The notes under the pieces were generated by a model. That model saw nothing but the letters and a program-made list of their open reading frames with translations, was not told the DNA's origin and did not search any database. A stretch of 64,000 nucleotides of DNA from Nitrospira defluvii (GTDB taxonomy: Bacteria > Nitrospirota > Nitrospiria > Nitrospirales > Nitrospiraceae): NCBI GenBank assembly GCA_000196815.1, contig FP929003.1:434001-498000 (forward strand), read 5' to 3'. The position numbers and the translations under genes were made by a program. This document shows positions 4,427 to 64,000 of the stretch, one piece after another. Within the stretch, counting starts at the first letter, position 1. Each line of letters begins with the position of its first letter.

Positions 4427-5074
4427 ATGCAAATCTATCTTGATACGGCCAATGTGAAAGAAATCCAAGAGGGGGCCAACCTGGGCCTTATCGACGGTGT
4501 GACAACTAACCCTTCGCTTGTCGCCAAGGAAGGGCGTAGTTTCAAGGAGATGCTGCTCGAAATCTGTAAGATGGTCGATGGTCCGATCAGTGCAGAGGTG
4601 GTTGGTGTCGAATCCGAGGCCATGATCAAAGAAGGGCGAGATCTGGCCAAAGTTCACAAGAATATCGTGGTGAAAGTTCCCCTTATCCCGGAGGGGCTTC
4701 GGGCCACAAAGAAGCTCGCCGCAGAGGGGATTCGTGTGAATGTCACCTTGTGCTTCTCCCCGACGCAGGCCTTGCTGGCCGCGAAGGCGGGCGCGTGGTG
4801 TGTTTCTCCATTCATCGGTCGTCTCGACGACGTGAGTTCGGATGGAATGGCACTAATCCGCCAGATCGTCACGATTTATAAGAACTACGATTATAAAACG
4901 CAGGTCCTCGTCGCGAGCGTCCGCCATCCGCAACACGTCGTCGAAGCAGCGTTGGCCGGGGGGCACATTTGCACGATGCCTTACGCCGTGTTTCAGCAGC
5001 TTGTGAAGCATCCGCTGACTGACATTGGGCTGAAAAAATTTCTGGCCGATTGGGATGCTATGGGAAAGAAATAG
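4427..5074 (+). CDS. tal: Transaldolase, short (FSA/TalC-like) class
   Basis: 215 residues, the compact transaldolase subfamily that also contains fructose-6-phosphate aldolase. It transfers the dihydroxyacetone unit between sugar phosphates in the non-oxidative pentose phosphate pathway. [10 protein letters not shown] with the catalytic Asp, GVTTNPSL and the Schiff-base Lys83 in [12 protein letters not shown] are all intact, followed by the phosphate loop near [17 protein letters not shown]. The start has a strong AGGAAAGGA site. It is transcribed alone, convergent with the downstream glycosylase gene. Sequence alone cannot separate transaldolase from aldolase activity; transaldolase is the commoner annotation for this length and N-terminus. 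Confidence 0.93.
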
Positions 5075-5087
5075 ACTTTCGAGGCGG

Positions 5088-5786: not shown

Positions 5787-5818
5787 GAGGTGGGAAGTGT
5801 ACCAAAACCAGGAGTTGC

Positions 5819-5847
5819 TTGTCCCTTGATGAGCTAGTTGCTAGCAT
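5819..5847 (+). promoter_or_regulatory. Candidate promoter for the lytic transglycosylase operon
   Basis: TTGTCC (5819-5824), a 17-base spacer and TAGCAT (5842-5847), 34 bases before the ATG at 5882. Moderate match to sigma70 consensus, in the only non-coding gap upstream of the 5882-10953 gene run. Confidence 0.38.
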
Positions 5848-5881
5848 GGGCTATCAGTCGTGACGAAAGGATAACAGGGGC

Positions 5882-6961: not shown

Positions 6962-6966
6962 TACCC

Positions 6967-8307: not shown

Positions 8308-8322
8308 CTAGTATCCCCCTCT

Positions 8323-36786: not shown

Positions 36787-38031
36787 ATGACCGCAGTACA
36801 GGAAACCGTGTTTCTGCAGGGCCACATTATCGATTCGTTGATCCTGGCCAAAGTCCTGGATACGATTCTGATGATGGGCGGCACCTTCGATCTGCAGGAC
36901 GTCAAGATCGGTGCGACCAGGGATGCTCCCTCTCAGGCGCGGATTGTCGTGCGAGCGTCGTCAGGCCGTCTGTTGGCCGAAATTCTACGGGCTATCCAAC
37001 CGCACGGCGCCGCGGTCGAGCGCGAAGCGGATTGTCGTTTCGAGCCGGCACTGGCCGCGGGAGTGTTTCCCGAACAGTTCTATGCGACGACCCATCTGCC
37101 GACCCAGATTCGTCTCGACGGCGAGTGGGTGGACGTAGAAGGAATGGAGATGGATCTCGGCATCTGTGTCGACCCGGCCAAGGCTCGCGCCAGGACTATT
37201 CCTATGGGCACGGTCGCCGTTGGTGACCTCATTGTCACCGGGCGCGAGGGCATCAGGGTCACGCCCCTCGCCCGGCCCGCTGAGCGCGATGTGTTCGGCT
37301 TTATGGAGTCGCTGGTCTCATCGGAGCGGCCCCATCACCCCATCATCGCCGATATTGCGCAGCGCATTCAGAAGCTGCGCGAATGGCATCGCGAAGGTCG
37401 TCCCGGGGCCAAGGTACTCCTTGCGGGTGGCCCGGCGATCGTGCATGCCGGGGGTCGGGAGGCCCTGACCTGGTTGATCGAGTCCGGGTACGTTCACGTC
37501 TTGTTCTGCGGCAATGCCTTGGCCGCGCACGACATGGAGGCTGCGCTCTATGGCACGTCGCTCGGGTATGGGCTGACGGCCGGCCGTTCCGTGCCGCACG
37601 GGCATGAGCATCACCTGCGCACCATCAATCGCATTCGTGCCATCGGCAGCATCGAGCAGGCTGTGCGATCGGGAGTCATCACCGGGGGAATCATGGCCGC
37701 CTGCGTGCAATGCGATGTGAAGCTGGTGATGGCGGGCACCATTCGCGACGACGGCCCGTTGCCCGGTGTGCTGACGGACTCCATGGCCGCGCAGCAGGCC
37801 ATGCGGGCGGCCATTCCCGGGGTTGGACTCGCCCTGTTGGTTGCGTCCACGCTGCATGCGATTGCGACCGGCAATTTGTTGCCGGCTACGGTGCCCACGG
37901 TCTGCGTCGATGTGAATCCGGCGGTGCCGACCAAATTGGCCGACCGTGGCAGTTTCCAAGCCGTCGGTCTCGTCATGGATGCCGCCTCCTTTCTGACAGA
38001 GCTCGCGCGTGAGCTCGGGTGGCGTCCATGA
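36787..38031 (+). CDS. LOR/SDH-family ornithine cyclodeaminase (TIGR00300 type)
   Basis: 414 residues. MTAVQETVFLQGHIIDSLILAKVLDTILMMGGTFDLQDVKIG is the N-terminal LOR/SDH domain, and the C-terminal half carries a Rossmann-like region (AKVLLAGGPAIVHAGG, VHVLFCGNALAAHDMEAALYGTS), HGHEHHLRTINRIRAIGS, CVQCDVKLVMAGTIRDDGPLPGV and CVDVNPAVPTKLADRG. Members include archaeal ornithine cyclodeaminases and the C-terminal half of cyanobacterial ArgZ/AgrE, which converts ornithine to proline and ammonia with NAD. It is followed by, and overlaps (ATGA at 38028-38031), an arginine dihydrolase-like gene, which strongly supports the proline-forming role. The start has GAGGGG upstream. Confidence 0.85.
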   Translation: MTAVQETVFLQGHIIDSLILAKVLDTILMMGGTFDLQDVKIGATRDAPSQARIVVRASSGRLLAEILRAIQPHGAAVEREADCRFEPALAAGVFPEQFYATTHLPTQIRLDGEWVDVEGMEMDLGICVDPAKARARTIPMGTVAVGDLIVTGREGIRVTPLARPAERDVFGFMESLVSSERPHHPIIADIAQRIQKLREWHREGRPGAKVLLAGGPAIVHAGGREALTWLIESGYVHVLFCGNALAAHDMEAALYGTSLGYGLTAGRSVPHGHEHHLRTINRIRAIGSIEQAVRSGVITGGIMAACVQCDVKLVMAGTIRDDGPLPGVLTDSMAAQQAMRAAIPGVGLALLVASTLHAIATGNLLPATVPTVCVDVNPAVPTKLADRGSFQAVGLVMDAASFLTELARELGWRP

Positions 38032-38828
38032 GCCGTCTCCTCGTGTGTCCTCCCGATTATTTTCAGATCGATTACGAGATCAATCCCTGGATGCGGCGGG
38101 ACAATGGCGTGGATCCGTCGCGTGCGGTCCGGCAATGGCAGACGCTGATGACCGTGCTGGAGCAGGAGGTCGGTGTCGGGGTGGAGCGGATGCAGCCTGT
38201 TCAGGGACTGCCCGATCTGGTGTTTACGGCCAATGCGGGCGTGGTCGTCGGTCGTCGCGCGTTGGTCAGCCGCTTCCGTTACCCGGAACGGCAACGGGAG
38301 GAAGTGCACTTTGCGCGATGGTTCCGTGAGCGGGGATATGAAGTGTTGACGCTTGAGCCCTCCCTGCATTTTGAAGGTGCCGGCGATCTGCTTGGATTTC
38401 CGGATACCTGGTTCGGCGGCTATCGTCAGCGGTCGAACATCCGGGCGTTTCCGAAGTTAAGCGAGATTTTTCAACGAGAAATTATTCCGCTCGAACTGGT
38501 CGACAGCCGCTTTTATCACCTAGACACCTGCTTTTGTCCGCTCAGCGGTGGAGATCTGCTCTACTTGCCCTCGGCATTCGATTCGTACGGCCGGGCCGCG
38601 ATTGCGGAACGAGTGTCGGACGATCGTCGCCTCGCCGTGCCCGAAGAAGAAGCGCTCCGATTTGCCTGCAATGCGGTCTGTGTGGGCAAACAGGTCGTGA
38701 TGCCCGCCGGTTGCCCGCGCACCACGAGGCTCCTGGAAGATCGAGGCTATCGCACCCATCCCGTCCATCTGGATGAATTCATGAAGTCGGGCGGCGCAGC
38801 CAAATGCCTGACTCTCGCCCTGGACTAG
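38028..38828 (+). CDS. Arginine dihydrolase-like enzyme (ArgZ N-domain type, guanidino-modifying fold)
   Basis: 266 residues. Pentein/amidinotransferase fold with MSRLLVCPPDYFQIDYEINPWM at the N-terminus, then Asn69 in LVFTANAG, Glu116 in HFEGAGDLL, His164 in RFYHLDTCFCPL and the nucleophile Cys260 in GGAAKCLTL. The Asn/Glu/His/Cys layout and the NPWM motif match arginine dihydrolase of cyanobacteria (ArgZ/AgrE), which turns arginine into ornithine, CO2 and two ammonia, rather than arginine deiminase. It is a separate protein here, translationally coupled to the LOR/SDH ornithine cyclodeaminase gene. An in-frame ATG at 38019 is less likely than 38028, which overlaps the previous stop. Its own TAG stop lies in the CTAG end of the following repeat element. 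Confidence 0.85.
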   Translation: MSRLLVCPPDYFQIDYEINPWMRRDNGVDPSRAVRQWQTLMTVLEQEVGVGVERMQPVQGLPDLVFTANAGVVVGRRALVSRFRYPERQREEVHFARWFRERGYEVLTLEPSLHFEGAGDLLGFPDTWFGGYRQRSNIRAFPKLSEIFQREIIPLELVDSRFYHLDTCFCPLSGGDLLYLPSAFDSYGRAAIAERVSDDRRLAVPEEEALRFACNAVCVGKQVVMPAGCPRTTRLLEDRGYRTHPVHLDEFMKSGGAAKCLTLALD

Positions 38829-39096: not shown

Positions 39097-39456
39097 TTAC
39101 CGTTTCTCGCGAAAGAGAAACGACAAGTACAGGCCTGCGATGGCGGTCGTGGTGAGCTCAATTGTGAGCAACAGCCGACTGACGATGGCATCCGGCTGCG
39201 GCGGGGAGAGAATGAAATGAAATCCGAGAAAGGCAGCCGGTTGCGAGGGCGGTGTTTCCCATGGGGGCATCACGAGAGAGACGATCAGGACCGTGACCAT
39301 GCCATAAAGAATGTTCAGATTCAGTTGTTCTCGGGCGGAGTCGGGAGTGGGTGACGTGCTGGGTCGGTCGGCGCTGTCCGCAACACTTGCACCGCACTGG
39401 GTGCAGTAGCGGTTGATTTCCGGCAAGGCACGTCCGCAGGCAGGACAGGGTTTCAT
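39097..39456 (-). CDS. Small zinc-ribbon membrane protein
   Basis: 119 residues. MKPCPACGRALPEINRYCTQCGASV is a double-knuckle zinc ribbon, followed by a short polar linker and two membrane helices (about 50-66 and 95-112). Proteins with this zinc_ribbon_2 plus membrane layout are common and uncharacterised. The start is the first ATG and matches the ribbon. It is divergent from the gpsA region, with the strong gpsA promoter between them. Confidence 0.75.
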   Translation of the reverse strand: MKPCPACGRALPEINRYCTQCGASVADSADRPSTSPTPDSAREQLNLNILYGMVTVLIVSLVMPPWETPPSQPAAFLGFHFILSPPQPDAIVSRLLLTIELTTTAIAGLYLSFLFREKR

Positions 39457-39572: not shown

Positions 39573-39638
39573 ATGAAGTCCGCGTACTACAGTCCGACTG
39601 CCGGCGCGCTCGACCTGGTCACGGGGGTGGGGCAGTGA
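39573..39638 (+). CDS. 21-codon leader ORF upstream of gpsA (candidate leaderless)
   Basis: ATG AAG TCC at 39573, a 21-residue peptide (MKSAYYSPTAGALDLVT and four more) ending at TGA 39636-39638, whose last base is the A of the gpsA ATG (TGATG). The ATG begins 8 bases after the perfect TATAAT, so the peptide would be read from the very end of the mRNA and could couple to gpsA. It may be a real leader peptide or just an open 5' untranslated stretch; there is no run of one amino acid or attenuator hairpin that I can see. Confidence 0.35.
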   Translation: MKSAYYSPTAGALDLVTGVGQ

Positions 39639-40663
39639 TGGAGCAGCCGGCCATCAAGCATGTGGCAGTCATCGGCGCCGGGGCCTGGGGGACGGCGTTG
39701 GCCCGGCATCTGGCTGAAAAACAGATTCCTGTCTGCCTCTGGGCTCATGAACCGGAGGTTGTCCGGGCGATCCAGCTCGGGCGCGAAAATACAGTGTACC
39801 TTCCGGACGTGCTGCTTCCGCCGACCCTCTCGGTAACGAATGTCTTAGCCGACGCCATCGCGGGCGCTGATTGCCTGATTTTTGCGGTCCCCTCGCATGT
39901 GGCGAGAGCGGTGCTGAGCCGGATTGCCGTCTTGCTGCCGCAGCCCATTCCGCTGGTCAGTGCGACCAAGGGGATCGAAGAAGAGACGCTTGCGCTCGTG
40001 ACGCAGGTCATGCAAGCGGTGCTGCCTGCGCATATGCAGGGTTCATTGTTGGTCCTGTCAGGACCGAGTTTTGCCAGTGAGGTCAGTCGAGGGAAACCGA
40101 CGGCGCTCTGTCTTGCCGGGCAGGATGCCGGTGTCGTCAAGGCGATTCAGGCGTTGTTCATGACGCCGAACTTTCGTGTCTATGCGGACGATGACTTGAT
40201 CGGCGTGCAACTCGGCGGTGCCCTGAAAAACGTGATGGCCCTGGCTGCCGGTGTCGTCGATGGGCTCGAACTCGGGCATAACGCCCGCGCGGCGCTCATC
40301 ACCCGCGGCCTGGCCGAAATGATCCGACTGGGTGTCGCGATGGGCGCCGATCCGCGGACGTTCTATGGTCTCTCAGGGGTCGGAGATCTCATTCTGACCT
40401 GCACCGGGCCCTTGAGCCGCAATCATTCGGTCGGGGTGCGGTTGGGAAAAGGCGAACGTTTGGAGGGGATTCTCGCGAGCATGCAGGCGGTGGCGGAAGG
40501 CGTGCGCACGGCGAAGGCGGCGCTGGATCTCGCCCTGCGCTGTGGTGTGGACATGCCGATCGTGCAGGAAGTCAATGCCGTGCTCTTTGCCGACAAGGCC
40601 TGTCGTCAGGCGGTCGGTGATCTCATGGAGCGCGAAGCCAAGGGGGAGAAGAGCCCGTCATGA
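39638..40663 (+). CDS. gpsA: Glycerol-3-phosphate dehydrogenase [NAD(P)+]
   Basis: 341 residues. Makes sn-glycerol 3-phosphate from dihydroxyacetone phosphate for phospholipid synthesis. The N-terminal Rossmann motif is VIGAGAWGTALA, then AVPSHVARAVLS, SATKGIEEETL, LSGPSFASEVSRGKPTA and the catalytic lysine in QLGGALKNVMALAAGVVDGLELG; GLSGVGDLILTCTGPLSRN follows. A GTG at 39635 is in frame, but the ATG at 39638 begins MEQPAIKHVAVIGAG and overlaps the leader stop. Its own stop overlaps the larB start (ATGA at 40660). Confidence 0.96.
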   Translation: MEQPAIKHVAVIGAGAWGTALARHLAEKQIPVCLWAHEPEVVRAIQLGRENTVYLPDVLLPPTLSVTNVLADAIAGADCLIFAVPSHVARAVLSRIAVLLPQPIPLVSATKGIEEETLALVTQVMQAVLPAHMQGSLLVLSGPSFASEVSRGKPTALCLAGQDAGVVKAIQALFMTPNFRVYADDDLIGVQLGGALKNVMALAAGVVDGLELGHNARAALITRGLAEMIRLGVAMGADPRTFYGLSGVGDLILTCTGPLSRNHSVGVRLGKGERLEGILASMQAVAEGVRTAKAALDLALRCGVDMPIVQEVNAVLFADKACRQAVGDLMEREAKGEKSPS

Positions 40664-41412
40664 ATCAGGACCAGCTGCAGGCGTTGCTCACGAAGGTTCA
40701 GCAGGGCGCTCTTGCGGTGCCGGACGCGCTTCACCAGCTACGAACTCTGCCCTATGAAAATTTAGGATTTGCCTCGCTCGATCACCATCGCGCGCTGCGC
40801 CAGGGGTTTCCGGAAGTCATTTTTTGTGAAGGCAAGACGGTATTGCAAGTGGTGGCCATCGCGAAGACGCTCTTGCGGAAGAACAACGCGTTGCTGGCGA
40901 CGCGGGTGGAACCCCCGGTTGCACGAGCGCTCCTGCGCGTGAGCAAACGGGCGGTCTACCATGAAGCGGCGCGGGTCGTCGCCATTGCGCCGCCCAAGTT
41001 GGTGCGCCGGGGGGCCGTGTTGATCGTCACCGCCGGCACCGCCGATATTCCCGTGGCGGAAGAAGCGCGGGTGACGGCCGATATCATGGGGAGCAAGACC
41101 GACACGTTGTACGATGTGGGAGTGGCCGGCTTGCATCGTCTGCTGGGGCAGCAGGAGCGCTTGCACGATGCCCGGGCGCTCGTCGTGGTGGCCGGCATGG
41201 ACGGCGTGCTTCCAAGCGTTGTCGGCGGACTGGTTCGTCAACCGGTGATTGCGGTGCCGACGAGCCGGGGCTATGGCGCGCACTTCGGCGGGTTGGCCGC
41301 ATTGTTGACCATGTTGAATTCCTGCGCGGCCGGAGTCGGGGTCATGAACATCGACAACGGTTTCGGAGCCGGCTGCCTCGCGCATCGAATCAATATGGTG
41401 GGGGAAGCGTAG
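40660..41412 (+). CDS. larB: Nickel-pincer cofactor synthesis protein LarB
   Basis: 250 residues. LarB carboxylates nicotinic acid adenine dinucleotide and cleaves its phosphoanhydride, the first step of the nickel-pincer nucleotide cofactor. LPYENLGFASLDHHRALRQGFPEVIFCEGKT, VIVTAGTADIPVAEEA, VVVAGMDGVLPSVVGGLVRQPVIAVPTSRGYGA and MLNSCAAGVGVMNIDNGFGAG are the LarB/PurE-like family blocks. It is coupled to gpsA by an ATGA overlap. larC lies about 0.8 kb downstream, after one minus-strand gene. Confidence 0.93.
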   Translation: MNQDQLQALLTKVQQGALAVPDALHQLRTLPYENLGFASLDHHRALRQGFPEVIFCEGKTVLQVVAIAKTLLRKNNALLATRVEPPVARALLRVSKRAVYHEAARVVAIAPPKLVRRGAVLIVTAGTADIPVAEEARVTADIMGSKTDTLYDVGVAGLHRLLGQQERLHDARALVVVAGMDGVLPSVVGGLVRQPVIAVPTSRGYGAHFGGLAALLTMLNSCAAGVGVMNIDNGFGAGCLAHRINMVGEA

Positions 41413-41464: not shown

Positions 41465-42037
41465 TCAGTTCTTCACGACAAACTTGCCGCGTTTGGGCCA
41501 CGACAACATCTGCGTGCGTTGACCCTTCTCGCCGTTGCTCAGCAATTTAACCCGCACTTCATATTCATAGGACCCGACCGGCACCTGCTGCTTGTTGTGG
41601 TCCAGCCCGTCCCACTCCAGATCCACCTGCACATGTTTCTGTGGTGTATCTCCGGCGGCACTGGTCGCTGTCTGCGCATGTTCATTCACCGGCTGCCGGA
41701 TCGAGAGGAAGCGGAGCGAGGTCATGGAGGAGGAGGTGACCAGGGCGGACACCTCCAGCATCAATTGTTCATCGACTTCCTTGGGCAGTTGCACGGTCGC
41801 GATGAAATGAAAGGGCCCGTCCTGCGGGCGGTAGGGCATCGGCGCGGCATGCAGCGAGAGAATTTTCAGGTCCGGCTCGGGGCGCGGGACGCTGCTTTTA
41901 CCCTTGGTTTTGGCGGACGCATCCAGGGGCTGTCCTCCCAGCAGAAGGGCCGCACCGAAGAGCAGCAGAAGGCCGAGTCGTACGGCACCCAATGTGCGAA
42001 AGGCAATCGTAGAGCAAAATGGTGTGGCAGTGGTCAT
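41465..42037 (-). CDS. Exported protein of unknown function
   Basis: 190 residues from the ATG at 42037 (MTTATPFCS), with a hydrophobic signal segment LGLLLLFGAALLLGG near residue 25. The mature part is beta-rich: FHFIATVQLPKEVDEQLMLEVSALV and VDLEWDGLDHNKQQVPVGSYEYEVRVKLL, the FlgD-Ig-like or CHU-C-like pattern of extracytoplasmic Ig domains. A longer frame begins at 42103. It sits between larB and larC on the opposite strand and therefore splits that gene set. Function unknown. Confidence 0.68.
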   Translation of the reverse strand: MTTATPFCSTIAFRTLGAVRLGLLLLFGAALLLGGQPLDASAKTKGKSSVPRPEPDLKILSLHAAPMPYRPQDGPFHFIATVQLPKEVDEQLMLEVSALVTSSSMTSLRFLSIRQPVNEHAQTATSAAGDTPQKHVQVDLEWDGLDHNKQQVPVGSYEYEVRVKLLSNGEKGQRTQMLSWPKRGKFVVKN

Positions 42038-42138
42038 GGTGTTGAAGTCGCAGGGTGTGGGCCGGTGGTCCGATGGAATGCGTCTCTTGATTGGGGATAA
42101 CACAGCATCGAAGGGCTGTCAATGAACGAGCGGAATGA

Positions 42139-42167: not shown

Positions 42168-42206
42168 GCCGCTCGCTCGCAGTGGATGATGAATCGTAGG
42201 AGTGAC

Positions 42207-43415
42207 GTGGCCACACATCTTCATTTCGACTGTTTCTCCGGCATCAGCGGCGATATGACTTTGGGCGCGCTGGTCGATGCGGGATTGCCGTTTAAAGATC
42301 TCGTGCGCGGGCTGGCCTTGCTGCGGATCGAGGGGTTTCGCCTGACGCGGAAACGGGTCGAACGCGGGGCCCTCACGGCCACTAAAGTCGATGTGCTCGT
42401 CGAGAAGGGCTTTCGCGCGCCGTTAACCCTGGCGCAGATCAAGCGGATTCTACTGAAGAGCGGCCTGCCCCCGGTGGTGAAAGAACAGAGTCAGGCCGTG
42501 TTCGATGTGCTGGCTCACGCCGAGGGGAAAGCCCATGGGGTCGAACCCTCGCATGTGCATTTTCACGAAGTCGGCGTGATCGATTCATTTGTCGATGTGG
42601 TCGGCGGGGTCCTGGGGCTCCATCTCCTGGGGGTGCGGCGCGTGACGGCCTCCGCGATCAATGTGGGATCGGGCACCCTCATGTCGGCACACGGATCGTT
42701 GCCTGTGCCGGGACCGGCCGTGGCCGCGCTGGCGGTCGGCCTGCCCATCTATGCCGGCGGGCCGCAGCGGGAACTGGCGACTCCGACCGGAGTGGCGCTG
42801 GTGCGAACCCTGGCGACAGAATTCGGGTGCCTGCCTCCCATGCAGGTGCGCCGGGTGGGGTACGGGGCAGGAACCGCCGATCCGGCGCATTGGCCGAATG
42901 TGTTACGGGTGTTCGTCGGTGAAGAACCGGCCGCCGCAGGTTCGGTGGAAACCATCGTTGAACTTCAGACGAACATCGACGATTTGAATCCGCAGGTCTA
43001 CGAGACCGTGTTCGATCGGGTGTTTGCTGCGGGAGCCGTGGATGCGACCCTGGCACCGGTCACGATGAAAAAAGGCCGTCCCGGAAATGTACTCTCCGTG
43101 CTGGCTCCCCAGGAGAAGGTGGAGGCCGTGCTGGCCGTGTTGTTTGCCGACACGACGGCGCTCGGGGTCAGGACCCATGAGGTGCAGCGGCGGGTACTGC
43201 CACGACGATTTGTCCCGGTACAGGTCCACGGCCACGAGGTGTCTATCAAGGTGGCGGACTCCCAACCGGGTCGGAGCAAAGCCGCTCCTGAGTATGAGGA
43301 TTGTAAACGGATTGCCGAACAGAGCGGCCGTCCGGTGAAAGACATTTTGGAAGAGGCCATGCAGGTCTATCGGCGCACGGCAGGACATGCGAAAAAGGGA
43401 AAAGGGAGCCGGTGA
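42207..43415 (+). CDS. larC: Nickel-pincer cofactor nickel insertase LarC
   Basis: 402 residues. LarC is the nickel chelatase that inserts Ni into the pincer nucleotide. HLHFDCFSGISGDMTLGALVDAGLP is the classic N-terminus, with SHVHFHEVGVIDSFVDVVGG (a His cluster), LPVPGPAVAALAVGLPIYAGG, and the C-terminal ferredoxin-like part LQTNIDDLNPQVYETVFDRVF. The GTG at 42207 has AGGAG four bases upstream and gives the expected start; an in-frame ATG at 42186 is less likely. There is no visible programmed frameshift such as the one known for the Lactobacillus protein; the gene is a single frame. larA and larE are not in the window. Confidence 0.93.
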   Translation: MATHLHFDCFSGISGDMTLGALVDAGLPFKDLVRGLALLRIEGFRLTRKRVERGALTATKVDVLVEKGFRAPLTLAQIKRILLKSGLPPVVKEQSQAVFDVLAHAEGKAHGVEPSHVHFHEVGVIDSFVDVVGGVLGLHLLGVRRVTASAINVGSGTLMSAHGSLPVPGPAVAALAVGLPIYAGGPQRELATPTGVALVRTLATEFGCLPPMQVRRVGYGAGTADPAHWPNVLRVFVGEEPAAAGSVETIVELQTNIDDLNPQVYETVFDRVFAAGAVDATLAPVTMKKGRPGNVLSVLAPQEKVEAVLAVLFADTTALGVRTHEVQRRVLPRRFVPVQVHGHEVSIKVADSQPGRSKAAPEYEDCKRIAEQSGRPVKDILEEAMQVYRRTAGHAKKGKGSR

Positions 43416-51005: not shown

Positions 51006-53738
51006 TTACTGAACGAGTGCCGGAAACCGTAGCCGGAAGGTGGTGCCACCGCCTTCGGTGCTCTCCACCGTGATGGTTCCGGCATATTTGATCACGATTT
51101 TGTGCACGATGCTGAGTCCGAGTCCCGTCCCTTTGCCGGCTGTTTTGGTGGTGAAGAACGGATCGAAAATCCTCGGCCGGATGGAAGCCGGGATGCCCGG
51201 ACCGGTATCGGCAATGGTCACCTGAATCCATCTGCCGTCCTGGCCGGTCGTTAACGTCAAGCAGCCGATCCCCTCCATAGCCTGGGTGGCGTTGCTGATC
51301 AAGTTGACAAACACCTGATCGATTTCTCCCTTTCGCGCGCGGAGAAACACCGGGGCATCGAACTGCGTGGCGATCTCCACTTGGCCGAAATGAGGCCCTC
51401 GCCGGACCATCTTGACCGCTTCGAGCAAACGTTCTGCCACATCGATTTCCGTCTCTCCATCCCTGCCGGCCGCGCGGGCATAGCCGGCGAAGTCCCGCAC
51501 GACGGTGGAGACGTGCCGCGCGTAGCCCACAATATCGGCGGCAAACTGTTTCACCGTGTCCGGATCGTCCTCCTCCTGGATCAACTCGGCCATGCTGAGG
51601 ATAGCCTGAGCCGGGTTGTTGATTTCGTGCGCCATGCCGGACACCATGGTGCCAAGGCTGGAGAGCTTTTCTGCCTGGATCAGTTCATCCTGGAGTCGTT
51701 TGTCGTCGGTGATATCCCACAACAGGATGCCCACTTGATACTGCGGGGATTCCGGGGTCGACACCGGAAAAAACCGATAGCGATACAGGCGTGCGGCGAC
51801 TTCGCACTCACATTCAGAAAGCCTATGAGGCGAGTCTGCCGTGTGCGTGTTCCATTCCACCACCTGTCGTTGAAGCGCGGGCTCGCTGAGGGAAAGACAT
51901 TCGCACAGCGGACGGCCGATCAGCGATTCGCCGGGAAGGGCAAAATACTGATGGGCCAGCGCATTCGCATACTGAACCTGCAAGTCGCTTCCACATAGGA
52001 AAATGGCGCCGGGCAGACTGGCCAGCAGGCTCTGAGTCGTGCGATGCGCCGCCCGTAATGCCTGCGCGGCCCGCGTGCGATCGATGAACTGTCCGATCTT
52101 CATGCCCGTGTCGGCGAGGATTTGAATCAGGTGGCTGTCGGAGGGCCGCCGCTGCTCGGTATACAACTCAAGCACTCCGTGGATGATGCTGCCGGTCCGG
52201 ATGGGGACGATGCAGGCCCCGTGAATACCCAGGCGAGAGGCAGTCGGTGCGCGGGTGAATCGGGAATCCGTGAGGGCGTCGGGTATCCAGAGCGGGAGTT
52301 TGGAGGCCCAGGCGATGCCAGGGAAATCCATTCCCGGCGGGAACTCGCTGTTGCGACAGACCGAGAGAAACTCATCCCATCGATGTGAGGGGCGGATCCA
52401 GCTTCCATGACACGTCAGCTGATCTCCCATCCGCCCGCACTGCCACAAGAGCGCCATATCCCACGCACCCATGGTGCCTGCGACATGGAGCAGTTGCGGG
52501 ATGGCTTCTTCGACGGTGCCGGCTTGCGCGAGGATATGGCTGACGGAGAGTTGGGCCTGCTGCAGGTTTTCTTGCTGTTTGCGAGCGCTGATGTCCTGGA
52601 ACACCACGACGGCGCCGACCAGCCGGTCTCGCTCACGGATGGGACTGGTGACGTATTGGACGGGAAACAGCGAGCCGTCCTTTCTGGCGAAGGCTTCGTT
52701 CTGGATGCGATGAACAGCCCCGTCATGAAGCGCCGCGCAGAGACAGAACGGGTCCGGGGAGCGCGCCGCATTCCCGTTGGCGATCCGATACAGGAGCGGT
52801 GCCAACGGTTTGCCGATCAGCTCGGCCGCGCTCCACCCGAGTATCCGCGCCGCGGTAGCGTTGGCGAAGGTGACGCATCCTTGCGGGTCCAGTCCGAAGA
52901 TGCCTTCCCCGGCGCTGTCGAGAATCAGCGCGTTCTGATGGCTCAACCTGACGACGGACTCTTCGGCGCGTTTGCGACGCGCAATATTGCGAATGATGCC
53001 GCTGAAGAACATCCCGTCACTCGCGCGCCAGGATGCCAGCGAGAGCTCAATCGGGAATTCGTCGCCGGTTTTGGTCAGACCCACGAGCTCGATGGTGTGC
53101 CCGATGATCGTGGCTGTTCCACCCTGGGCGAGGCGTGTGACGCCGGCCGCGTGCGCGGCGCGAAACCGTTCCGGCATCATGATGGTCAGCGGACGCCCGA
53201 GGGCGTCTTCTTTGGTATACCCGAACATTCGCTCGGCGGCGCCGTTCCACCAGATGATGAGGCCGCTCTGGTCGGCGAGCACCATGGCGTCGGTTGCCGA
53301 CTCCACCAACGCCCGAAAGCGTTCTTCGCTGGCCTGCAATGCCTCCTCCACATGCTCGGCCCGGACGGTCAACCCTTTCACCGAGACGGCCCGGCGCAGG
53401 ATGGCCTTGAGCTCTTGGGAGTTATACGGTTTGGTCAGGTACGCGAAGGCTCCTTTGGCCAGAGAGCCGATTGTGTTTTCGGGCGTGACGTTTCCGGTCA
53501 GGATGATGACGGGGAGACTCGCGTCCAATTCCATGAGCACTTTCAGGACCGAGAGACCGTTGAGGTCGGGCAATTGGATGTCGAGGAGCGCTGCGTCGTA
53601 GCGGGTCTGTTTGGCTTGCTGAAGGGCCTCGGTTCCGGACGCGGCGCTGTGCACCAGGTATCCCTCGTGACCCAACATGTCCGTGAGCGATTCCCGGATA
53701 TCCGGATCGTCATCGACAATGAGAACGGGAGGGCGCAT
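51006..53738 (-). CDS. Receiver-PAS-GAF-PAS hybrid histidine kinase
   Basis: 910 residues, cytoplasmic. Receiver domain 1-125 with phosphoacceptor Asp53 (ALLDIQLPDLNG) and conserved KP lysine. Two PAS domains follow (about 138-260 and 265-390), then a GAF-like region (about 390-560), a third PAS (about 565-690), and the kinase core: H-box GMAHEINNPAQAIL, N-box FVNLISNATQAME, G1 VTIADTGPGIPAS and G2 GTGLGLSIVH. Receiver-first hybrids relay signals without their own output domain. The first 390 residues are paralogous to the protein encoded at 57321-60443, indicating a duplication. It is the last gene of the minus-strand sensory cluster, 242 bases after the previous stop. Confidence 0.88.
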   Translation of the reverse strand: MRPPVLIVDDDPDIRESLTDMLGHEGYLVHSAASGTEALQQAKQTRYDAALLDIQLPDLNGLSVLKVLMELDASLPVIILTGNVTPENTIGSLAKGAFAYLTKPYNSQELKAILRRAVSVKGLTVRAEHVEEALQASEERFRALVESATDAMVLADQSGLIIWWNGAAERMFGYTKEDALGRPLTIMMPERFRAAHAAGVTRLAQGGTATIIGHTIELVGLTKTGDEFPIELSLASWRASDGMFFSGIIRNIARRKRAEESVVRLSHQNALILDSAGEGIFGLDPQGCVTFANATAARILGWSAAELIGKPLAPLLYRIANGNAARSPDPFCLCAALHDGAVHRIQNEAFARKDGSLFPVQYVTSPIRERDRLVGAVVVFQDISARKQQENLQQAQLSVSHILAQAGTVEEAIPQLLHVAGTMGAWDMALLWQCGRMGDQLTCHGSWIRPSHRWDEFLSVCRNSEFPPGMDFPGIAWASKLPLWIPDALTDSRFTRAPTASRLGIHGACIVPIRTGSIIHGVLELYTEQRRPSDSHLIQILADTGMKIGQFIDRTRAAQALRAAHRTTQSLLASLPGAIFLCGSDLQVQYANALAHQYFALPGESLIGRPLCECLSLSEPALQRQVVEWNTHTADSPHRLSECECEVAARLYRYRFFPVSTPESPQYQVGILLWDITDDKRLQDELIQAEKLSSLGTMVSGMAHEINNPAQAILSMAELIQEEDDPDTVKQFAADIVGYARHVSTVVRDFAGYARAAGRDGETEIDVAERLLEAVKMVRRGPHFGQVEIATQFDAPVFLRARKGEIDQVFVNLISNATQAMEGIGCLTLTTGQDGRWIQVTIADTGPGIPASIRPRIFDPFFTTKTAGKGTGLGLSIVHKIVIKYAGTITVESTEGGGTTFRLRFPALVQ

Positions 53739-57320: not shown

Positions 57321-60300
57321 CTACGTGTCCGCGTGCCCCTTTGTCGCGTGAACGATACCGAGAACGCGTGTGGCGACCCCATCGGTGTTGCGATGAATAC
57401 GACCGGTCCAGGCCAGCCAATGGATGGAGTGATCGTCCCGCACGACGCGATGCCGGATGTTGAGTGTGGACTGGTCGCGCAAACTGTGTTCGATTTGCAT
57501 CAGGACCGGGCCGCGGTCGAGCGCATAAATCAGGCCGATATACGCGGCATAGGTGCCGGGGAAAGACCCTGGGTTCAGACCGAACAGGGCCTCGACGTCG
57601 GGTGACCAGTAGAGGCGATCGGACTGCACGTCCCAATCCCAGATGCCGACTTCCGATTCGGTCAGGGCCGTGCGCAACCGTTCCTCGCTGAGGCGAAGGT
57701 GGGCTTCCGCCTGCTTGCGCTCCGTGATGCATTGCAGCGAGCCGGCCATGCGGAGCGCATACCCTTGCGCGTCCCGCTCCAGCACTTCAGCCCGGGCGTG
57801 AAACCAGCAATACTCGCCCTGCTTGGTCAGTAACCGGTAGTCGACGTCGTAGTGAGACTGACCTCTTTCGAGGCAGGCCGCCAGCCGGTCGAAGACGATC
57901 TCGCGATCATCCGGGTGCAGCCGGGAGGTCCAGCTGTCGAGGATATCGGGAAACTCCTGTTCGTTGTACCCCAGCATCTCCCTCACGCGCGGCGACCACC
58001 AGACCGGAGTCATCGGTGAGTGCCAGGGCTGGTCGGGAAGCACATGGCCGTCCCAGAATCCGTCGTTCGATCCCCGGATGACCGATTCGAGTCGCTCCTC
58101 GCTTGCCCGAAGCGAATCCTGGACCCGTCTGTAGTCTGTGATATCGCGAGAGATCGCCAAGAGGCGTCGTGAATAACCCCGCGTGTCGAGCATGGGAGTG
58201 ACCTGCACGTCCCACCACTTCGGGACGCCGTCGGTGGTGGGGCAGAAGCCGACAAATTTGCCGATCTCGCCGGCTTTCGCGGCTTCGAGCGCAGCCAGAG
58301 CGGCATTCCGATCGTCTCCCTCCCACAGGTCCGCCCAGGGTTTGTTCAGGTAGCCGGTGAGGTCGCCGATGTGTAGCAGTGTTTTGCCTGCATCATTCAT
58401 GTATTGCAGCCGACCTTCCAGGTCCAGCACTTTGATGCAGTCTGCACTGCTGCGTAGGATTTGGTTCTTGAATTCTTCGCTGTCGTGGAGGGCGATCTCG
58501 GCCTCCTTCATGGCGGTGATGTCTTCGCACACGATCAGCACCACCGGAGTTTGTTGGTCGTTGAGCACGGCCTGAGCGGTTTCTCGCACCCAGATGACGC
58601 TGCCGTCCTTTCGAACCTTGCGAAACTCCCAACCTCTGGGCCTGCCCATTTCTAAGAGGCAGGCGGCAAGGTTCGTGCGCACGTCGTCCCGATCGTTCGG
58701 GTGGAAGATATTCAGTACGGATAATCCGAGTAGTTCCTGGACGTCGTAGCCGAGGCGTTCGGCTCCGAAGCGGTTGACCGACAGGACGGTGCCTGCCGCA
58801 TCCACCATGAAATACATGGACGGATTGTCGTCGAACAGGACCCGATACCGGCGTTCGCTTTCGATCAGCGCCGCTTCAACCCGTTTGCGCTCGGTGACGT
58901 CTTCCGCGAAACCCGCGATGCGGTAGACCGTTCCGGACGCGTCACGGATCGGGAATGCGCGATCCCAGATCCATCGCATCGATCCATCCGGGCGGAGGAT
59001 GCGATATTCCTCATTGTACGATCCGGAAATTTGCCGGTGCATGGCTGCGTCCCGGACCCGTAAGCGGTCGTCGGGATGGATGGCCTCCATCCACGAGCCC
59101 GGCATCGCGTAGAGGCTTTCGCAGGAATTCCCCCACACTTCTTCGTACCCGGGGCTGATATAGAGCACGCGGCTCTTGGCCGGGTCGGTGATCCAGAACA
59201 CTTCCCGGATGTGTTCCGCCAGCTGACGGAATCGCTCCTGGCTTTCTTCCACGGCCCGTTCGGCTTCCAGGCGTTCGGTGATGTCGCGGAAGACAACCAC
59301 GGCCCCTGCGACCGCGCCCTTCTCAATGATCGGCGTGCTCACATATTCCACCGGGAGAGCGGTGCCGTCTTTCCTCCAGAAGACATCGCGCGACACTCGA
59401 TGGACCACGCCGTCGCGAAGGGCCGCGTAGATGGGACATTCATCGGCCGGGTAGAAGCTGCCGTCGGGCTGGGAATGATGGAGCAGCTGGTGCATCGGTT
59501 GCTCGACGAGTTCGGAGGGATCAAACCCCAGTAATTGAGCGGCGGTCGGATTCACGAAGGTGGTCACGCCGTTGCGATCCAGTCCATAGATGCCTTCCCC
59601 TGCTTGCGTGAGGATGACTTCGTGCAGACGGCGGAGGCGGTCGAGAATCTCTTCTGCCTTTCGCCGTTGAGTAATGTCGCGAATGATGCCGCTGAAAAAG
59701 ACGGCGACATCGGTTTTCCACATGGCCAACGACAGCTCGATCGGGAATTCGCTGCCGTCTTTGCGCAAACCTTCCAGTTCGACCAGACGACCGATAAGTC
59801 GGGACTGGCCGGTGTCCTTCACGCGGGCGAGCCCTCGCTCGTGAGCGACGCGATACCGTTGTGGCATCAACATGGTCAGGGGTTGCCCGCGAACCTCCTC
59901 GTCGGTATATCCGAACAATCGGGCGGAAGCCTGGTTCCAGGAGAGGATCCGGCCGTTCTCGTCCGCCAGGACGATGGAGTCGGTGGCGGCCTCGACCAGG
60001 GATCGAAATCGTGCTTCGCTTTCGCTCAGCGCATGTTCAGCATGCTCGGCTTTGGCGGCGAGCGCTTGGATGCCGATAGCCCGGCGAAGGACCGTCCGCA
60101 ATTCGTCCCGGTTGTAGGGTTTGGTGAGGTAGGCGAATGCGCCTTGAGTCAGTGAACCGACGGTACGATCGGCGCTCGTGTAGGCCGTGAGAATGATGAC
60201 CGGAAGCTGCGGCTGTTGTTCCTGCAATGTCCGCAGGACAGACGAGCCGTCACCATCCGGCAATCCCAAGTCCAGCAAGACGGCGTTGTAGTGATGGTCG

Positions 60301-60443
60301 TGTGTCTGCGTGAGTGCTTCCGCGCAGGTGCCGGCGACGCTCACATGGTAGCCGTCGTGGTCGAGTAAGTCCTGTAGCCCGAGGGCGATATCTGGATCGT
60401 CGTCCACGACGAGGATTGAATGACCGGGTGTAGTGGCTGTCAT
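57321..60443 (-). CDS. Receiver protein with seven PAS domains and no kinase
   Basis: 1040 residues. Receiver domain 1-125 with Asp58 (AVLLDLGLPDGDG) and SLTQGAFAYLTKPYNRDELRTVLRRAI, then seven PAS/PAC repeats with approximate starts at 145, 270, 400, 525, 650, 775 and 915. After the last PAC (RVLGIVHATKGHADT) the protein stops. There is no H-box, HATPase, GGDEF or other output. The PAS domains probably bind small ligands or FAD-like cofactors and pass state through the receiver. Residues 1-390 closely resemble the kinase encoded at 51006-53738. GAGG lies 6 bases before the start. A truncation of a former kinase is possible, but the stop is clean and the next gene begins 48 bases later. Confidence 0.85.
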   Translation of the reverse strand: MTATTPGHSILVVDDDPDIALGLQDLLDHDGYHVSVAGTCAEALTQTHDHHYNAVLLDLGLPDGDGSSVLRTLQEQQPQLPVIILTAYTSADRTVGSLTQGAFAYLTKPYNRDELRTVLRRAIGIQALAAKAEHAEHALSESEARFRSLVEAATDSIVLADENGRILSWNQASARLFGYTDEEVRGQPLTMLMPQRYRVAHERGLARVKDTGQSRLIGRLVELEGLRKDGSEFPIELSLAMWKTDVAVFFSGIIRDITQRRKAEEILDRLRRLHEVILTQAGEGIYGLDRNGVTTFVNPTAAQLLGFDPSELVEQPMHQLLHHSQPDGSFYPADECPIYAALRDGVVHRVSRDVFWRKDGTALPVEYVSTPIIEKGAVAGAVVVFRDITERLEAERAVEESQERFRQLAEHIREVFWITDPAKSRVLYISPGYEEVWGNSCESLYAMPGSWMEAIHPDDRLRVRDAAMHRQISGSYNEEYRILRPDGSMRWIWDRAFPIRDASGTVYRIAGFAEDVTERKRVEAALIESERRYRVLFDDNPSMYFMVDAAGTVLSVNRFGAERLGYDVQELLGLSVLNIFHPNDRDDVRTNLAACLLEMGRPRGWEFRKVRKDGSVIWVRETAQAVLNDQQTPVVLIVCEDITAMKEAEIALHDSEEFKNQILRSSADCIKVLDLEGRLQYMNDAGKTLLHIGDLTGYLNKPWADLWEGDDRNAALAALEAAKAGEIGKFVGFCPTTDGVPKWWDVQVTPMLDTRGYSRRLLAISRDITDYRRVQDSLRASEERLESVIRGSNDGFWDGHVLPDQPWHSPMTPVWWSPRVREMLGYNEQEFPDILDSWTSRLHPDDREIVFDRLAACLERGQSHYDVDYRLLTKQGEYCWFHARAEVLERDAQGYALRMAGSLQCITERKQAEAHLRLSEERLRTALTESEVGIWDWDVQSDRLYWSPDVEALFGLNPGSFPGTYAAYIGLIYALDRGPVLMQIEHSLRDQSTLNIRHRVVRDDHSIHWLAWTGRIHRNTDGVATRVLGIVHATKGHADT

Positions 60444-60510: not shown

Positions 60511-62544
60511 TCAAAATCTCACGGTGACCCAGCCCATCATCCGCCGGCTGATGAGGTCGCCCAGCGGGTATTCCTTGTGTTCGTCATTGAGCGCATTGAA
60601 GACCGAGACCGCCACTTCGGCATCGCGCATGTATCCGGCCGCGGCCTTCTGTTGCCAGAATCGATACCCGGCGCGGAGATTAAACAGGTTGTATGCACCG
60701 ACGTCTGGATTCGGAAGGGTGACGAGACCGGCTTGAGAGAACGTTGTAAATGACTGACCTGGCGGATAGTTGGTCGCTCCATAGTAATGGAAGATGGCCT
60801 CGGCGTTGACGCCGTTGTCCCACTCGCCGCGCAATCCGACGTTGAACTTGTTGTGCGGCCCTGCGCGTTGCACACGGCCGGTGAACGTTTGATGAATTTC
60901 CTGGTAGGAGTAGTTCGCAAAACCGGTGAGCCATTTAGTGGCCAGCACTTCGAAGCCAACCTCGCCGCCATAGATATCCGCCGAGCCGATGTCGTTACTG
61001 AAGACTGCGAGTGTCGCGGATTGGTTGCGAACGCTGATCAGATCCGAGGTGTGATTGTAGAACACGTCGGCGCGAACCCTGAGCCGGTGACGCCAATACC
61101 AGCCTTGGTAGCCCAAGTCGTAAGAAATAATTTGTTCAGGCGAGAGATTCTGCCTTCCGGCAATAGTCGTTGCGACCGGCGGTAGAGGCGGGTTCGTGTT
61201 CACGAATGCATTCGACTGGTTTTCCAGCATGGTGGGTGGCCGATAGGCCACTGAACTAGACAGTCGGAAAATATGATCGCTGGACGGAGCATAGAACAGA
61301 GACACGCGGGGGCTGATGGTGGGGCTGATGAACGTGTCCAAGTCATATCGAACCCCGGCGACGACCGTAAAGGGCTCGGCGACTTTCCATTCATCCTGTA
61401 CGAAGAAGCCGAGTCGGTTTTCTGTGGTGTATTGGGTGATGGCATTGCCCGAAAGCGTGTTAAGGCGGTAGTTCACGCCATATGTCAGGCGATTGCCCGA
61501 AAAGGGTCCAACCGAATGCTGAATCTCGACATTATAGGTGTTCGCCGTAAAAATCGTAGTCGGCGACCCGTTTCCTGAACTGTAACTCAGGAAAGGTGCA
61601 AGGGGAGGCTGGAATGTGTAGGCCGAATTGCTGGTGTATTGATTCCAGAATGCTCTGACGAGGAAGTCCTGGCGTTCGTATTCAACTTTGGCATAGCTCT
61701 GAGCGGACTTGTTGGAAAGAGTGACATCCTGGCTTACAATGGGATTGTTAGCATTGGAGTCCACAAGTCCGCCGGAAATCCTAATCTTGGAGTCCGCTGA
61801 GAGGGCATATTCGGTCAGGACGTTGACGAGATTGTCGCGAAAGGCCAGGGCACTGCTATTGTTCCACGAGGCATTTTGATTGTGCCCGATGGAAAGCCGG
61901 TATCCGAACTTGTCCACCGTTCCCGCTTGGATCGCGGAAGCCATGATGGTTCCATAGCTGCCTCCGCCAAACTGTAACGTCGTGCCCTTCATCTCTTCCG
62001 GCGATTTGGTGATGATATTGATGACGCCGTCAAAGGCGTTGAAGCCCCAGACAGCAGAGGCCGGTCCCTTCAAGACTTCGATCCGTTTGATTTCCGGCAG
62101 GGTGACCGGCAGGAGTTTCCAGTTTATGGTGCCTTGCAGATCGTTATAGATGGAGCGCCCATCCACCATCACCAGTAGCTTGTTAGCGTTGGTTTGGTTG
62201 TCCCCTCGCACGCTGACGTTGAAGTCGGCCCCGCTTGTCTGCATCACTTCCAGGCCGGGGATGCGCCGGAGCAAGGTGGGAATATCGGTTGTGCCGGACA
62301 TGCGAATGTCTTCGTCGGTGATCACATAGACATTGGACGGAGCCTGCGAGATCGGCTGCTCATAGCGGCTCGCGATGCTGACGGTTTCTTCTTCTTTCAG
62401 CAGTTCCAATTCTTCACTGATGGCGGTCGCAGCCGGCTCTGGCCGATCGGGTGCAGCGGATTCGGCCCATGCCTCGCCCGTCATGCTGACCGTCAGCACG
62501 GCCGTCAGCATCGACCGCCTGGCTCGTTTGAATGTTTCATTCAT
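60511..62544 (-). CDS. TonB-dependent outer-membrane receptor, paralogue 1
   Basis: 677 residues. The signal peptide (1-28) is followed by a TonB-box-like ETVSIASR, then the plug domain with QAPSNVYVITDEDIRMSGTTDIPTLLRRIPGLEV, NVSVRGDNQTNANKLLVMVDGRSIYND and EVLKGPASAVWGFNAFDGVINIITK, and a C-terminal 22-strand beta-barrel ending in the aromatic RRMMGWVTVRF. This imports a ligand such as a siderophore, vitamin or carbohydrate across the outer membrane using TonB energy; the ligand is unknown. The next gene, a second receptor in tandem, ends 10 bases upstream of this one. In the sensory cluster it may bring in the molecule sensed downstream. Confidence 0.92.
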   Translation of the reverse strand: MNETFKRARRSMLTAVLTVSMTGEAWAESAAPDRPEPAATAISEELELLKEEETVSIASRYEQPISQAPSNVYVITDEDIRMSGTTDIPTLLRRIPGLEVMQTSGADFNVSVRGDNQTNANKLLVMVDGRSIYNDLQGTINWKLLPVTLPEIKRIEVLKGPASAVWGFNAFDGVINIITKSPEEMKGTTLQFGGGSYGTIMASAIQAGTVDKFGYRLSIGHNQNASWNNSSALAFRDNLVNVLTEYALSADSKIRISGGLVDSNANNPIVSQDVTLSNKSAQSYAKVEYERQDFLVRAFWNQYTSNSAYTFQPPLAPFLSYSSGNGSPTTIFTANTYNVEIQHSVGPFSGNRLTYGVNYRLNTLSGNAITQYTTENRLGFFVQDEWKVAEPFTVVAGVRYDLDTFISPTISPRVSLFYAPSSDHIFRLSSSVAYRPPTMLENQSNAFVNTNPPLPPVATTIAGRQNLSPEQIISYDLGYQGWYWRHRLRVRADVFYNHTSDLISVRNQSATLAVFSNDIGSADIYGGEVGFEVLATKWLTGFANYSYQEIHQTFTGRVQRAGPHNKFNVGLRGEWDNGVNAEAIFHYYGATNYPPGQSFTTFSQAGLVTLPNPDVGAYNLFNLRAGYRFWQQKAAAGYMRDAEVAVSVFNALNDEHKEYPLGDLISRRMMGWVTVRF

Positions 62545-62554
62545 CGTTCCACAT

Positions 62555-64000
62555 TCAGAACCTGAGCGTGACCCAACCCATCACCCGGCTGCCGAGCGTA
62601 TCGCCCAAGGGATGTTCCTTGTGTTTGTCGCTGAGCGCGTTGTAGACCGCCACGGCCACCTCGGCCTTGTCGTGCCAGAATCGGTACCCGCCCCGCAGGT
62701 TCAGCAGGGTATAACTATCGACCGTCGGACTGGTCGGCGCGGGCAGCACCGGCGCGAGCGCGGTGAAAAATTCGATCAACGGATAGGTGGCACTTGCGAC
62801 GTAATGCACCGCGATTTCTGAATTGAAGCCGTTGTCCCAGTCACCGCGGAGGCCCACATTCGCTTTCCAGTCCGGGCCGCCGCGTCGAGAGACGCCGGTG
62901 AAGGTTTGTCCGATTTTCTGGTAGGACACATTCGCAAAGCCGCTGAGCCATCTGGTGGCGAGGAACTCCAGTCCCGCTTCAGTGCCATAGATGTCGGCCT
63001 CACCGCCGTTGACGAGTGTGCGCGCGGTGCCGACGGTTTGGAAGTTGATCAAGTCGGAGAGGTGATTAAAGAAGAGGTCGAGCCTGGTCCGGAGCCGGTG
63101 TTTCATCCACCAGCCCTGGTATCCCGCTTCGTAGGAAATGATTTGCTCAGGATTGAGTTTCTGTGAGCCCAGCAGCGGGATGGGTGCGAATAGTGGTGGA
63201 ACGGTCGGCAGGATTCGAAGGTCAAGATTCGATTCGAATAGCGTCGGGGGGCGATAGGCGACCGAGCCGCTGATACGAAACGTATGCTCCGGCGTCAGGT
63301 TGTAGACGAGGGCGACACGCGGGCTCCAGGTACCGTTGATTCTGGTGTGCAGGTCGTAGCGGACCCCCGCTACGAGGATGAGCGAGGGACGTATCTTCCA
63401 CTCGTCCTGGAGATGGACCCCGAAACGATCTTCTCGTCCTAATTCAGAGACGGCACTGCCGTCGACCGTGTTGTAACGATAATTGACGCCATAACTCAAC
63501 CGGTTGGACGAGCCGAATTCGAGGCTGTGTTGTGCCTCTATGTTGTAGGTGTTCGTGGTGAACGACACATTGGGCCCGCCGGTCGCGTTCGTCTGCCGGA
63601 CAAATTGCGAGAGGAGCGGATGGGTGGCGGAGTCGACGGGAATGTCGTTGCCCTGCCACCAGCCGCGCACGGAGAAATTGCGGTACTGGTAATGTACGTC
63701 CGTATATCCTTGATTGAATTGGGAACGAGGAATCTGGACGTTTGAAACGGGGCCGTCGAAACGATTGGTATCGATGAACCCTCCGGCTACGCGCAAGGTG
63801 GCGTCACCGGAGAAGTTGTACTGCGTCTGCACGTTGAATTTGTTCGACCGGAAGGCGAGGGCGTCGCTGTTGCGCCATTGTTGATTCTGGTCATGGCCGA
63901 TGGAGAGACGGTAGTCGAGTTTGCCCGCCGACCCGGCCTGGACGGCGGCACTGGAGATGGTGCCGAGTTCCCCGCCGCCGAACTGCAACGTCGTGCCCTT
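62555..64000 (-). CDS. TonB-dependent outer-membrane receptor, paralogue 2 (5' end cut by window edge)
   Basis: 481 codons visible, with the barrel ending in SRVMGWVTLRF. The frame runs off the right edge (KGTTLQFGGGELGTISSAAVQAGSA), so the signal, TonB box and plug are outside the window; the ATG-like codon at 63988 is internal. The opening KGTTLQFGGG, LSIGHDQNQQWRNSDALAFR, and YRPPTLFES match the paralogue at 60511-62544, so the two arose by tandem duplication and diverged in their loops. Ligand unknown. Confidence 0.9.
   Translation of the reverse strand, partial: KGTTLQFGGGELGTISSAAVQAGSAGKLDYRLSIGHDQNQQWRNSDALAFRSNKFNVQTQYNFSGDATLRVAGGFIDTNRFDGPVSNVQIPRSQFNQGYTDVHYQYRNFSVRGWWQGNDIPVDSATHPLLSQFVRQTNATGGPNVSFTTNTYNIEAQHSLEFGSSNRLSYGVNYRYNTVDGSAVSELGREDRFGVHLQDEWKIRPSLILVAGVRYDLHTRINGTWSPRVALVYNLTPEHTFRISGSVAYRPPTLFESNLDLRILPTVPPLFAPIPLLGSQKLNPEQIISYEAGYQGWWMKHRLRTRLDLFFNHLSDLINFQTVGTARTLVNGGEADIYGTEAGLEFLATRWLSGFANVSYQKIGQTFTGVSRRGGPDWKANVGLRGDWDNGFNSEIAVHYVASATYPLIEFFTALAPVLPAPTSPTVDSYTLLNLRGGYRFWHDKAEVAVAVYNALSDKHKEHPLGDTLGSRVMGWVTLRF

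Follow-up and report, generated by a model that had tools for sequence, protein, structure and literature searches.

A split ornithine cyclodeaminase and arginine dihydrolase-like gene pair, probably linked to nickel-pincer nucleotide, beside larB and larC in a Nitrospira-like bacterium

The stretch of DNA analysed here (the window; 64,000 nucleotides, G000:C1:434001-498000) belongs to a genome that is a single contig of 4,317,083 bases, and it carries two coupled genes on the forward strand. The first (36787..38031, +, 414 aa) encodes an ornithine cyclodeaminase (OCD) of the LOR/SDH, TIGR00300 type that is predicted to depend on nickel-pincer nucleotide (NPN), and the second (38028..38828, +, 266 aa) encodes an arginine dihydrolase-like pentein enzyme (ADH) corresponding to the N-terminal half of ArgZ as a separate protein. 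An ATGA stop/start overlap at 38028..38031 (+) joins them, in agreement with the 4-base overlap claimed in an earlier, sequence-only reading of this DNA; we took the ATG at 38028 as the ADH start, for which the mechanical ORF list gives a GTG at 38019. The gene upstream of OCD is truD, and ADH is followed by a small gene on the opposite strand (39097..39456, -) and then by gpsA for glycerol-3-phosphate dehydrogenase (39635..40663, +; NF000942, 428.6 bits over a cut-off of 257), which marks the synteny of the locus and has no part in the pathway. The gpsA gene overlaps by 4 bases with larB (40660..41412, +; NF033503, 283.5 bits over 175), the predicted carboxylase/hydrolase of NPN biosynthesis. 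Between larB and larC lies a gene with no NCBIfam match whose position is conserved in the window's family (41465..42103, -), and larC itself (42186..43415, +) encodes LarC1 and LarC2 domains and would serve nickel insertion in NPN biosynthesis (TIGR00299, 190.2 bits over 90; NF052512, 136.8 over 50). The starts of larB and larC are thereby 2.6 and 4.2 kb past the OCD end, and beyond larC come a gene resembling Ca/Na antiporters, whose match stays under the model's cut-off, and then pdxA and ksgA. Elsewhere in the window, inspection of the ORF list by eye revealed two side-by-side and similar TonB-receptor-like ORFs (60511..62544 and 62555..63988, -) and two long ORFs with a response-regulator-like start followed by PAS-like repeats (51006..53738 and 57321..60443, -).

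OCD matched TIGR00300 over its full length at 456.4 bits, above NCBI's curated cut-off of 410.8, and this model bears the name 'ornithine cyclodeaminase, nickel-pincer nucleotide-dependent' in NCBIfam release 20.0. Matches to PF04455, PF21571 and PF21570 were also found, and the solved relatives were the archaeal LOR/SDH enzyme of PDB 3c2q and, in their C-terminal halves, AgrE and ArgZ (6lrf, 6juy). Ten residues (H220, H248, D249, E251, H273, R320, D321, D322, H357 and K383 in the window's numbering) were invariant in 40 aligned OCDs, among which H276 was nearly but not fully invariant, and the same ten were kept in 76 to 78 of the 78 rows of a larger alignment consisting of 77 rows from a multi-phylum scan and the window. 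Three scan rows in which the OCD match was in two pieces (L074, L076 and L082) were left out of the residue comparison and of the tree built from the same 77 rows plus the window, where the nearest named relatives were Nitrospiraceae and Nitrospira records. The genome shares the genes for cofactor synthesis with the lactate racemase system of LarA, LarB, LarC and LarE. That system has another client enzyme with another reaction, and PF09861, the LarA domain, was not matched by OCD.

For ADH, the best NCBIfam model was arginine dihydrolase, NF052232, at 290.8 bits, below the curated cut-off of 450, and the protein is called ArgZ-like here rather than filed as a member of that family. Its best solved relative was PDB 6jv0 (E 1.4e-72), a structure of Sll1336, which we take to be Synechocystis ArgZ. 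Both family assignments of the sequence-only reading, to LOR/SDH cyclodeaminases and ArgZ-like dihydrolases, were thus borne out, and its separation of ADH from arginine deiminases also held, with 18.5 bits on TIGR01078 (arcA; cut-off 489.1) against the far higher dihydrolase score. As a control, ArgZ's own domain reached 529 bits on NF052232, placing the window's ADH (291 bits) in a more distant sub-branch, while the split ADHs of six other loci (L058, L066, L084, L094, L114 and L133) scored 273.6 to 294.8 bits and the dihydrolase matches in all 50 genomes of the panel described below stayed below NCBI's cut-off. The model for fused ArgZ/AgrE proteins (NF052231, cut-off 1025 bits) gave 369.9 and 286.1 bits for the two ORFs. 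Residues Asn69, Glu116, His164 and Cys260 of ADH stand exactly where the sequence-only reading had put them and align with identical letters in ArgZ, whose counterparts have catalytic roles. All four were invariant in 12 aligned Nitrospirota ADHs (the window and others, 12 of the 25 found) and in 17 from several phyla (the window and 16 of the 38 found among the best 80 of 576 loci); the solved Sll1336 chain 6juz has a Ser at the position matching N69, unlike 6jv0.

Because the ADH score lies below the dihydrolase cut-off and is moderately better than that on the model for Mtb-type dimethylargininase (DDAH; NF045659, 238.0 bits, itself under a cut-off of 300), arginine is a substrate that we infer. 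These same two scores would suit a dimethylargininase or another guanidine-modifying enzyme in place of an arginine dihydrolase, as would the ADH of locus L094, for which the two models come close (295 v 278 bits). However, the NF045659 score does not discriminate, since ArgZ itself obtains 239.5 bits on that model, nearly the value of the window's ADH, and the preference of the latter for the dihydrolase model, the conservation of Asn at the ArgZ Asn position in both sets of aligned relatives (12 and 17 rows) and the pairing with an ornithine-consuming enzyme all speak against such a function. A dihydrolase partner fits because OCD needs ornithine, which is provided by a dihydrolase and not by a deiminase or a dimethylargininase, and we consider a dimethylargininase or other guanidine-modifying function for ADH quite unlikely.

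To describe the distribution of the pair, we searched 177 Nitrospirota genomes and found OCD over cut-off in 57. A panel of 50 of these genomes, 22 with OCD over cut-off and 28 without, was picked with knowledge of OCD status and blind to LarB, LarE and LarC status, so that lar status was determined for 22 of the 57 OCD-bearing genomes; panel counts are uncorrected for kinship. OCD was followed by ADH on the same strand in all 22 OCD-bearing panel genomes, including G151, in which the first ~30 residues of OCD are in another frame. ADH (E below 1e-79) was present in 25 of the 50, that is, in these 22 and in three more, namely G170 with an OCD remnant, G159 with OCD in two frames and G093 with no OCD. 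A multi-phylum scan of genome contigs with two conserved peptides yielded 576 confirmed relatives, of which the best 80, ranked by similarity, were analysed; relatives of lower similarity, the cyanobacterial fusions among them, are outside the scope of this set. ADH followed OCD on the same strand in 38 of these 80 loci (within 232 bases in 37 and at 2.0 kb in one); it preceded OCD in none, shared an ORF with it in none and was not found in 42, at four of which the sequence stops within 900 bases of OCD. The paired loci of this best 80 of 576 came from Nitrospirota, Nitrospinota, Planctomycetota, Verrucomicrobiota, Myxococcota, Methylomirabilota, Omnitrophota, Armatimonadota and Chloroflexota. 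Archaeal loci differ from the window, in which ADH adjoins OCD, in that six of them (L117, L119, L120, L121, L130 and L131, some with short flanks) had OCD with no ADH in the flank examined. These results indicated that the adjacency of OCD and ADH and their family matches are far beyond chance. The sequence-only reading had correctly described two separate genes in reversed order relative to cyanobacterial ArgZ/AgrE, and the recurrence in 22 of 22 panel genomes and 38 of 80 scan loci rules out a local rearrangement as the origin of the split, OCD-first order, which is not specific to this genome.

Both halves of AgrE (Anabaena Alr4995) and ArgZ (Synechocystis Sll1336) align along their length with the window's proteins (PDB 6juy, 6lrf), with the same catalytic residues and the same predicted overall reaction, and the window differs in having two proteins with the OCD gene first. 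AgrE of Anabaena, as one protein, converts arginine to proline and sets free one CO2 and three NH4+ in doing so (PMC8262935), and by homology the pair is expected to carry out this overall reaction with two proteins. Judged from family membership and gene order, the pair would probably turn arginine into proline with the release of three ammonia, and the OCD step probably needs NPN. In the proposed sequence of events, Cys260 of ADH would attack the guanidine carbon of arginine with the assistance of His164, Glu116 and Asn69, and two rounds of hydrolysis would yield ornithine, two NH3 and CO2. NPN bound to OCD would then accept a hydride from the C2 position of ornithine; ring closure by the delta-amine on the imine formed in this way would expel NH3, and return of the hydride would give L-proline, so that the redox step would stay hidden and nothing would be consumed. 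The cofactor would come from LarB and LarC, encoded downstream of OCD, and from LarE, encoded elsewhere in the genome, which holds all three genes over cut-off. We put a probability of about 0.7 on this reading as a whole, a two-gene nitrogen-release module of ADH followed by an NPN-dependent OCD with NPN supplied by LarB, LarC and LarE.

Methanogens with this cyclodeaminase have reportedly been proposed to use it for proline biosynthesis, and a module serving mainly that purpose rather than nitrogen release would be in line with proline being the OCD product and with the six archaeal loci mentioned above. On the other hand, proC was matched in 174 of the 177 Nitrospirota genomes (169 over cut-off) and is present in two copies in the window's genome, which makes proline supply independent of OCD and rules out OCD as a proline route for want of proC. 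Proline biosynthesis as the main purpose is therefore the least probable of the alternatives weighed here, and a catabolic or nitrogen-balancing role of the pair is more likely.

The surroundings of the pair bear on the cofactor. The order truD, OCD, ADH, gpsA, larB, larC was shared, with insertions in some, by the window and 13 of the 14 other OCD-bearing loci over cut-off in its family (f1, probably Nitrospiraceae), the sole exception among the 15 being G105 with larB 21 kb away; at the seven panel OCD loci outside this family, no larB or larC was found within the flanking stretch examined. At the genome level, one identical set of 42 among the 50 panel genomes had LarB, LarE and LarC over cut-off, and all 22 OCDs fell within these 42 and none within the eight lar-negative genomes (Fisher p 0.006, uncorrected for kinship). 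Twenty of the 42 lar-positive genomes keep the lar genes with no intact OCD, so the presence of these genes alone is no pointer to OCD. The Lar_N domain of LarA occurred in just five of the 50 panel genomes, four of them with OCD, so service to LarA alone was rejected as an explanation for the lar genes. The window's genome does encode a LarA homologue (Lar_N match G000:C1:706074-706649), and this protein may be an NPN client there. Its gene (L053 4042..5376; G000:C1:706074; 444 aa) lies, by eye, among glycosyltransferase-like genes, its product is below NCBIfam's LarA cut-offs (best NF052593, 231 of 500 bits), and a LarA homologue was present in four of the five members of the genus in the panel and in G137. 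Another family, NF052581 (GSU2086 family, no function named), was over cut-off in 37 of the 42 lar-positive and 0 of the 8 lar-negative panel genomes. Three of the 22 OCD genomes (G042, G045 and G053) had neither LarA nor GSU2086 over cut-off, and OCD is, to our knowledge, the only candidate NPN client left in them.

A relative of the window provides a further test of the link between OCD and the lar genes. In G170 (L041, G170:C54:31000-45000), OCD matched only at residues 1-21 and 325-411, with ADH, truD and gpsA intact, and in the same 14-kb, N-free stretch larB was gone and larC matched only at residues 349-399 of 409. No LarB, LarE or GSU2086 over cut-off was found anywhere in this genome; because the assembly is a draft with a stated completeness of 95%, the missing larE alone counts for little. 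G170 is a case of natural co-loss of OCD with larB and larC in which the dihydrolase was kept.

In the multi-phylum scan, LarC occurred in the flank of seven (two of them Planctomycetes) and LarB in that of five of the best 80 of 576 loci, as detected by profiles built from the window's family that may miss distant members. In the 46 OCD-bearing genomes tested from this set, LarC was present in 37 and LarB in 38, with both in 36, at least one in 39 and neither in seven. The 14 named control genomes agree with the link between OCD and the lar genes: M. jannaschii and H. volcanii carry OCD, T. maritima and M. acetivorans carry LarA, and LarC was found in each of these four, while S. elongatus and C. 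glutamicum had LarC with neither OCD nor LarA. The seven genomes with neither LarB nor LarC over cut-off, mostly MAGs of unstated completeness, were those of Bacillota L065, L079 and L111, Spartobacteria L069 and L096, one Chloroflexi and one Armatimonadetes, and thus included every one of the three Bacillota tested, which group as a single clade in the OCD tree, and both Spartobacteria tested. This phylogenetic clustering is unlike random incompleteness, and the seven genomes are the main result against a universal need of OCD for NPN; the Bacillota and Spartobacteria records possibly represent OCDs that work without NPN, or genomes that are incomplete. The OCDs of the lar-less genomes had not clearly lost any conserved residues, and a search for a residue signature splitting lar-positive from lar-negative OCDs (40 v 7 rows) returned none that was clear.

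The sequence-only reading had expected an NAD site in OCD, an expectation that was not upheld in view of the NPN-dependent name of TIGR00300 and the two lar genes just downstream. An NAD(H) site has reportedly been described in the AgrE structure, and the same arginine-to-proline pathway could run with an OCD that holds NAD(H) tightly as in AgrE, in which case the proximity of the lar genes would be incidental and their product would serve other clients such as GSU2086 and LarA. The seven lar-less genomes and the wide occurrence of GSU2086, another candidate client, among lar-positive genomes would agree with this, but the family name, the constant company of LarB, LarC and LarE with OCD over cut-off in the panel (22 of 22), the three OCD genomes with neither GSU2086 nor LarA over cut-off and the co-loss in G170 argue against it. 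We regard an NAD(H)-dependent OCD as unlikely, albeit the foremost alternative to the NPN-dependent module. Taken together, the families, residues, split and order described by the sequence-only reading stood and its NAD site was not supported, with ADH under the dihydrolase cut-off and its substrate assigned as set out above.

The GSU2086 family is a further candidate for an NPN-dependent enzyme, as judged by its distribution and gene context. Its association with lar in the panel gave a Fisher p of 2e-6, uncorrected for kinship, and every lar-positive panel genome except G161 had at least one of OCD, GSU2086 and LarA. The link was weaker in the wider scan, in which GSU2086 was found in 21 of 39 genomes with LarB or LarC and in one of seven with neither (p 0.1; 46 genomes from the best 80 of 576). 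Family members gave weak matches to deoxyhypusine synthase and to the C-terminal Rossmann domain of ArgZ, and a profile comparison of OCD with GSU2086 covered 67 columns only, at 21% probability and E 0.0011, a likeness that is suggestive at most. A gmhA-like or heptose-phosphate-adenylyltransferase-like gene was present at 10 of 16 GSU2086 loci, four of the ten being from the window's family and one (L049) having only a weak heptose-gene match over a kilobase off. In the window's genome, the GSU2086-family protein (L043 4648..5679; G000:C1:4240737-4241651; 448 bits on NF052581) adjoins a gmhA-like gene. The larB and GSU2086 genes are ~4 kb apart in L139 (G178, ~3645..8982) and L140 (G188, ~4067..9779), with a gmhA-like gene directly before GSU2086 in both; its matches stay under the curated cut-offs in L139, and in L140 it has an SIS domain. 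At L050 and L051 argD- and argF-like genes come straight after the GSU2086 homologue, and at L050 larE lies upstream of that homologue with two genes between. In Geobacter, GSU2085 (hldE), GSU2086 and GSU2087 (gmhA) have consecutive tags and a similar effect on electrode growth (PMC5585712). We tentatively suggest, at somewhat less than even odds, that deoxyhypusine-synthase-like Rossmann proteins may form a second, non-LarA class of NPN enzymes with OCD as one branch and GSU2086 as another, the latter perhaps acting as an epimerase or isomerase with hidden redox in the synthesis of heptose or LPS sugars. If true, many genomes with NPN synthesis but no LarA would thereby gain a client for the cofactor.

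According to PMC11796402, which also saw a mass adduct of about 450 Da on LarA, about 15% of more than 1,000 genomes surveyed have larB, larE and larC without larA, most cyanobacteria have no genes for LarA-like proteins, and the lar genes of Synechocystis make NPN whose user was called yet unidentified in December 2024. PMC8305020 mentions possible larBCE and an unnamed enzyme with the NPN cofactor in Haloferax volcanii, and the passages of PMC11770544, PMC7583248 and PMC12611868 consulted name no other NPN clients. In the library searched, no literature joining NPN with ornithine cyclodeaminase was found, nor anything on ornithine cyclodeaminase in Nitrospira; the NCBIfam naming of TIGR00300 implies that an NPN-OCD link was made earlier, by a source that was not found in that library. 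An arginine nitrogen-release route of this kind has been described in cyanobacteria. The present analysis places this predicted route in a Nitrospira-like bacterium and several other phyla, and the location of OCD near two NPN genes, together with their joint loss in one relative, offers a testable answer to the question of which enzymes may use NPN where LarA is missing.
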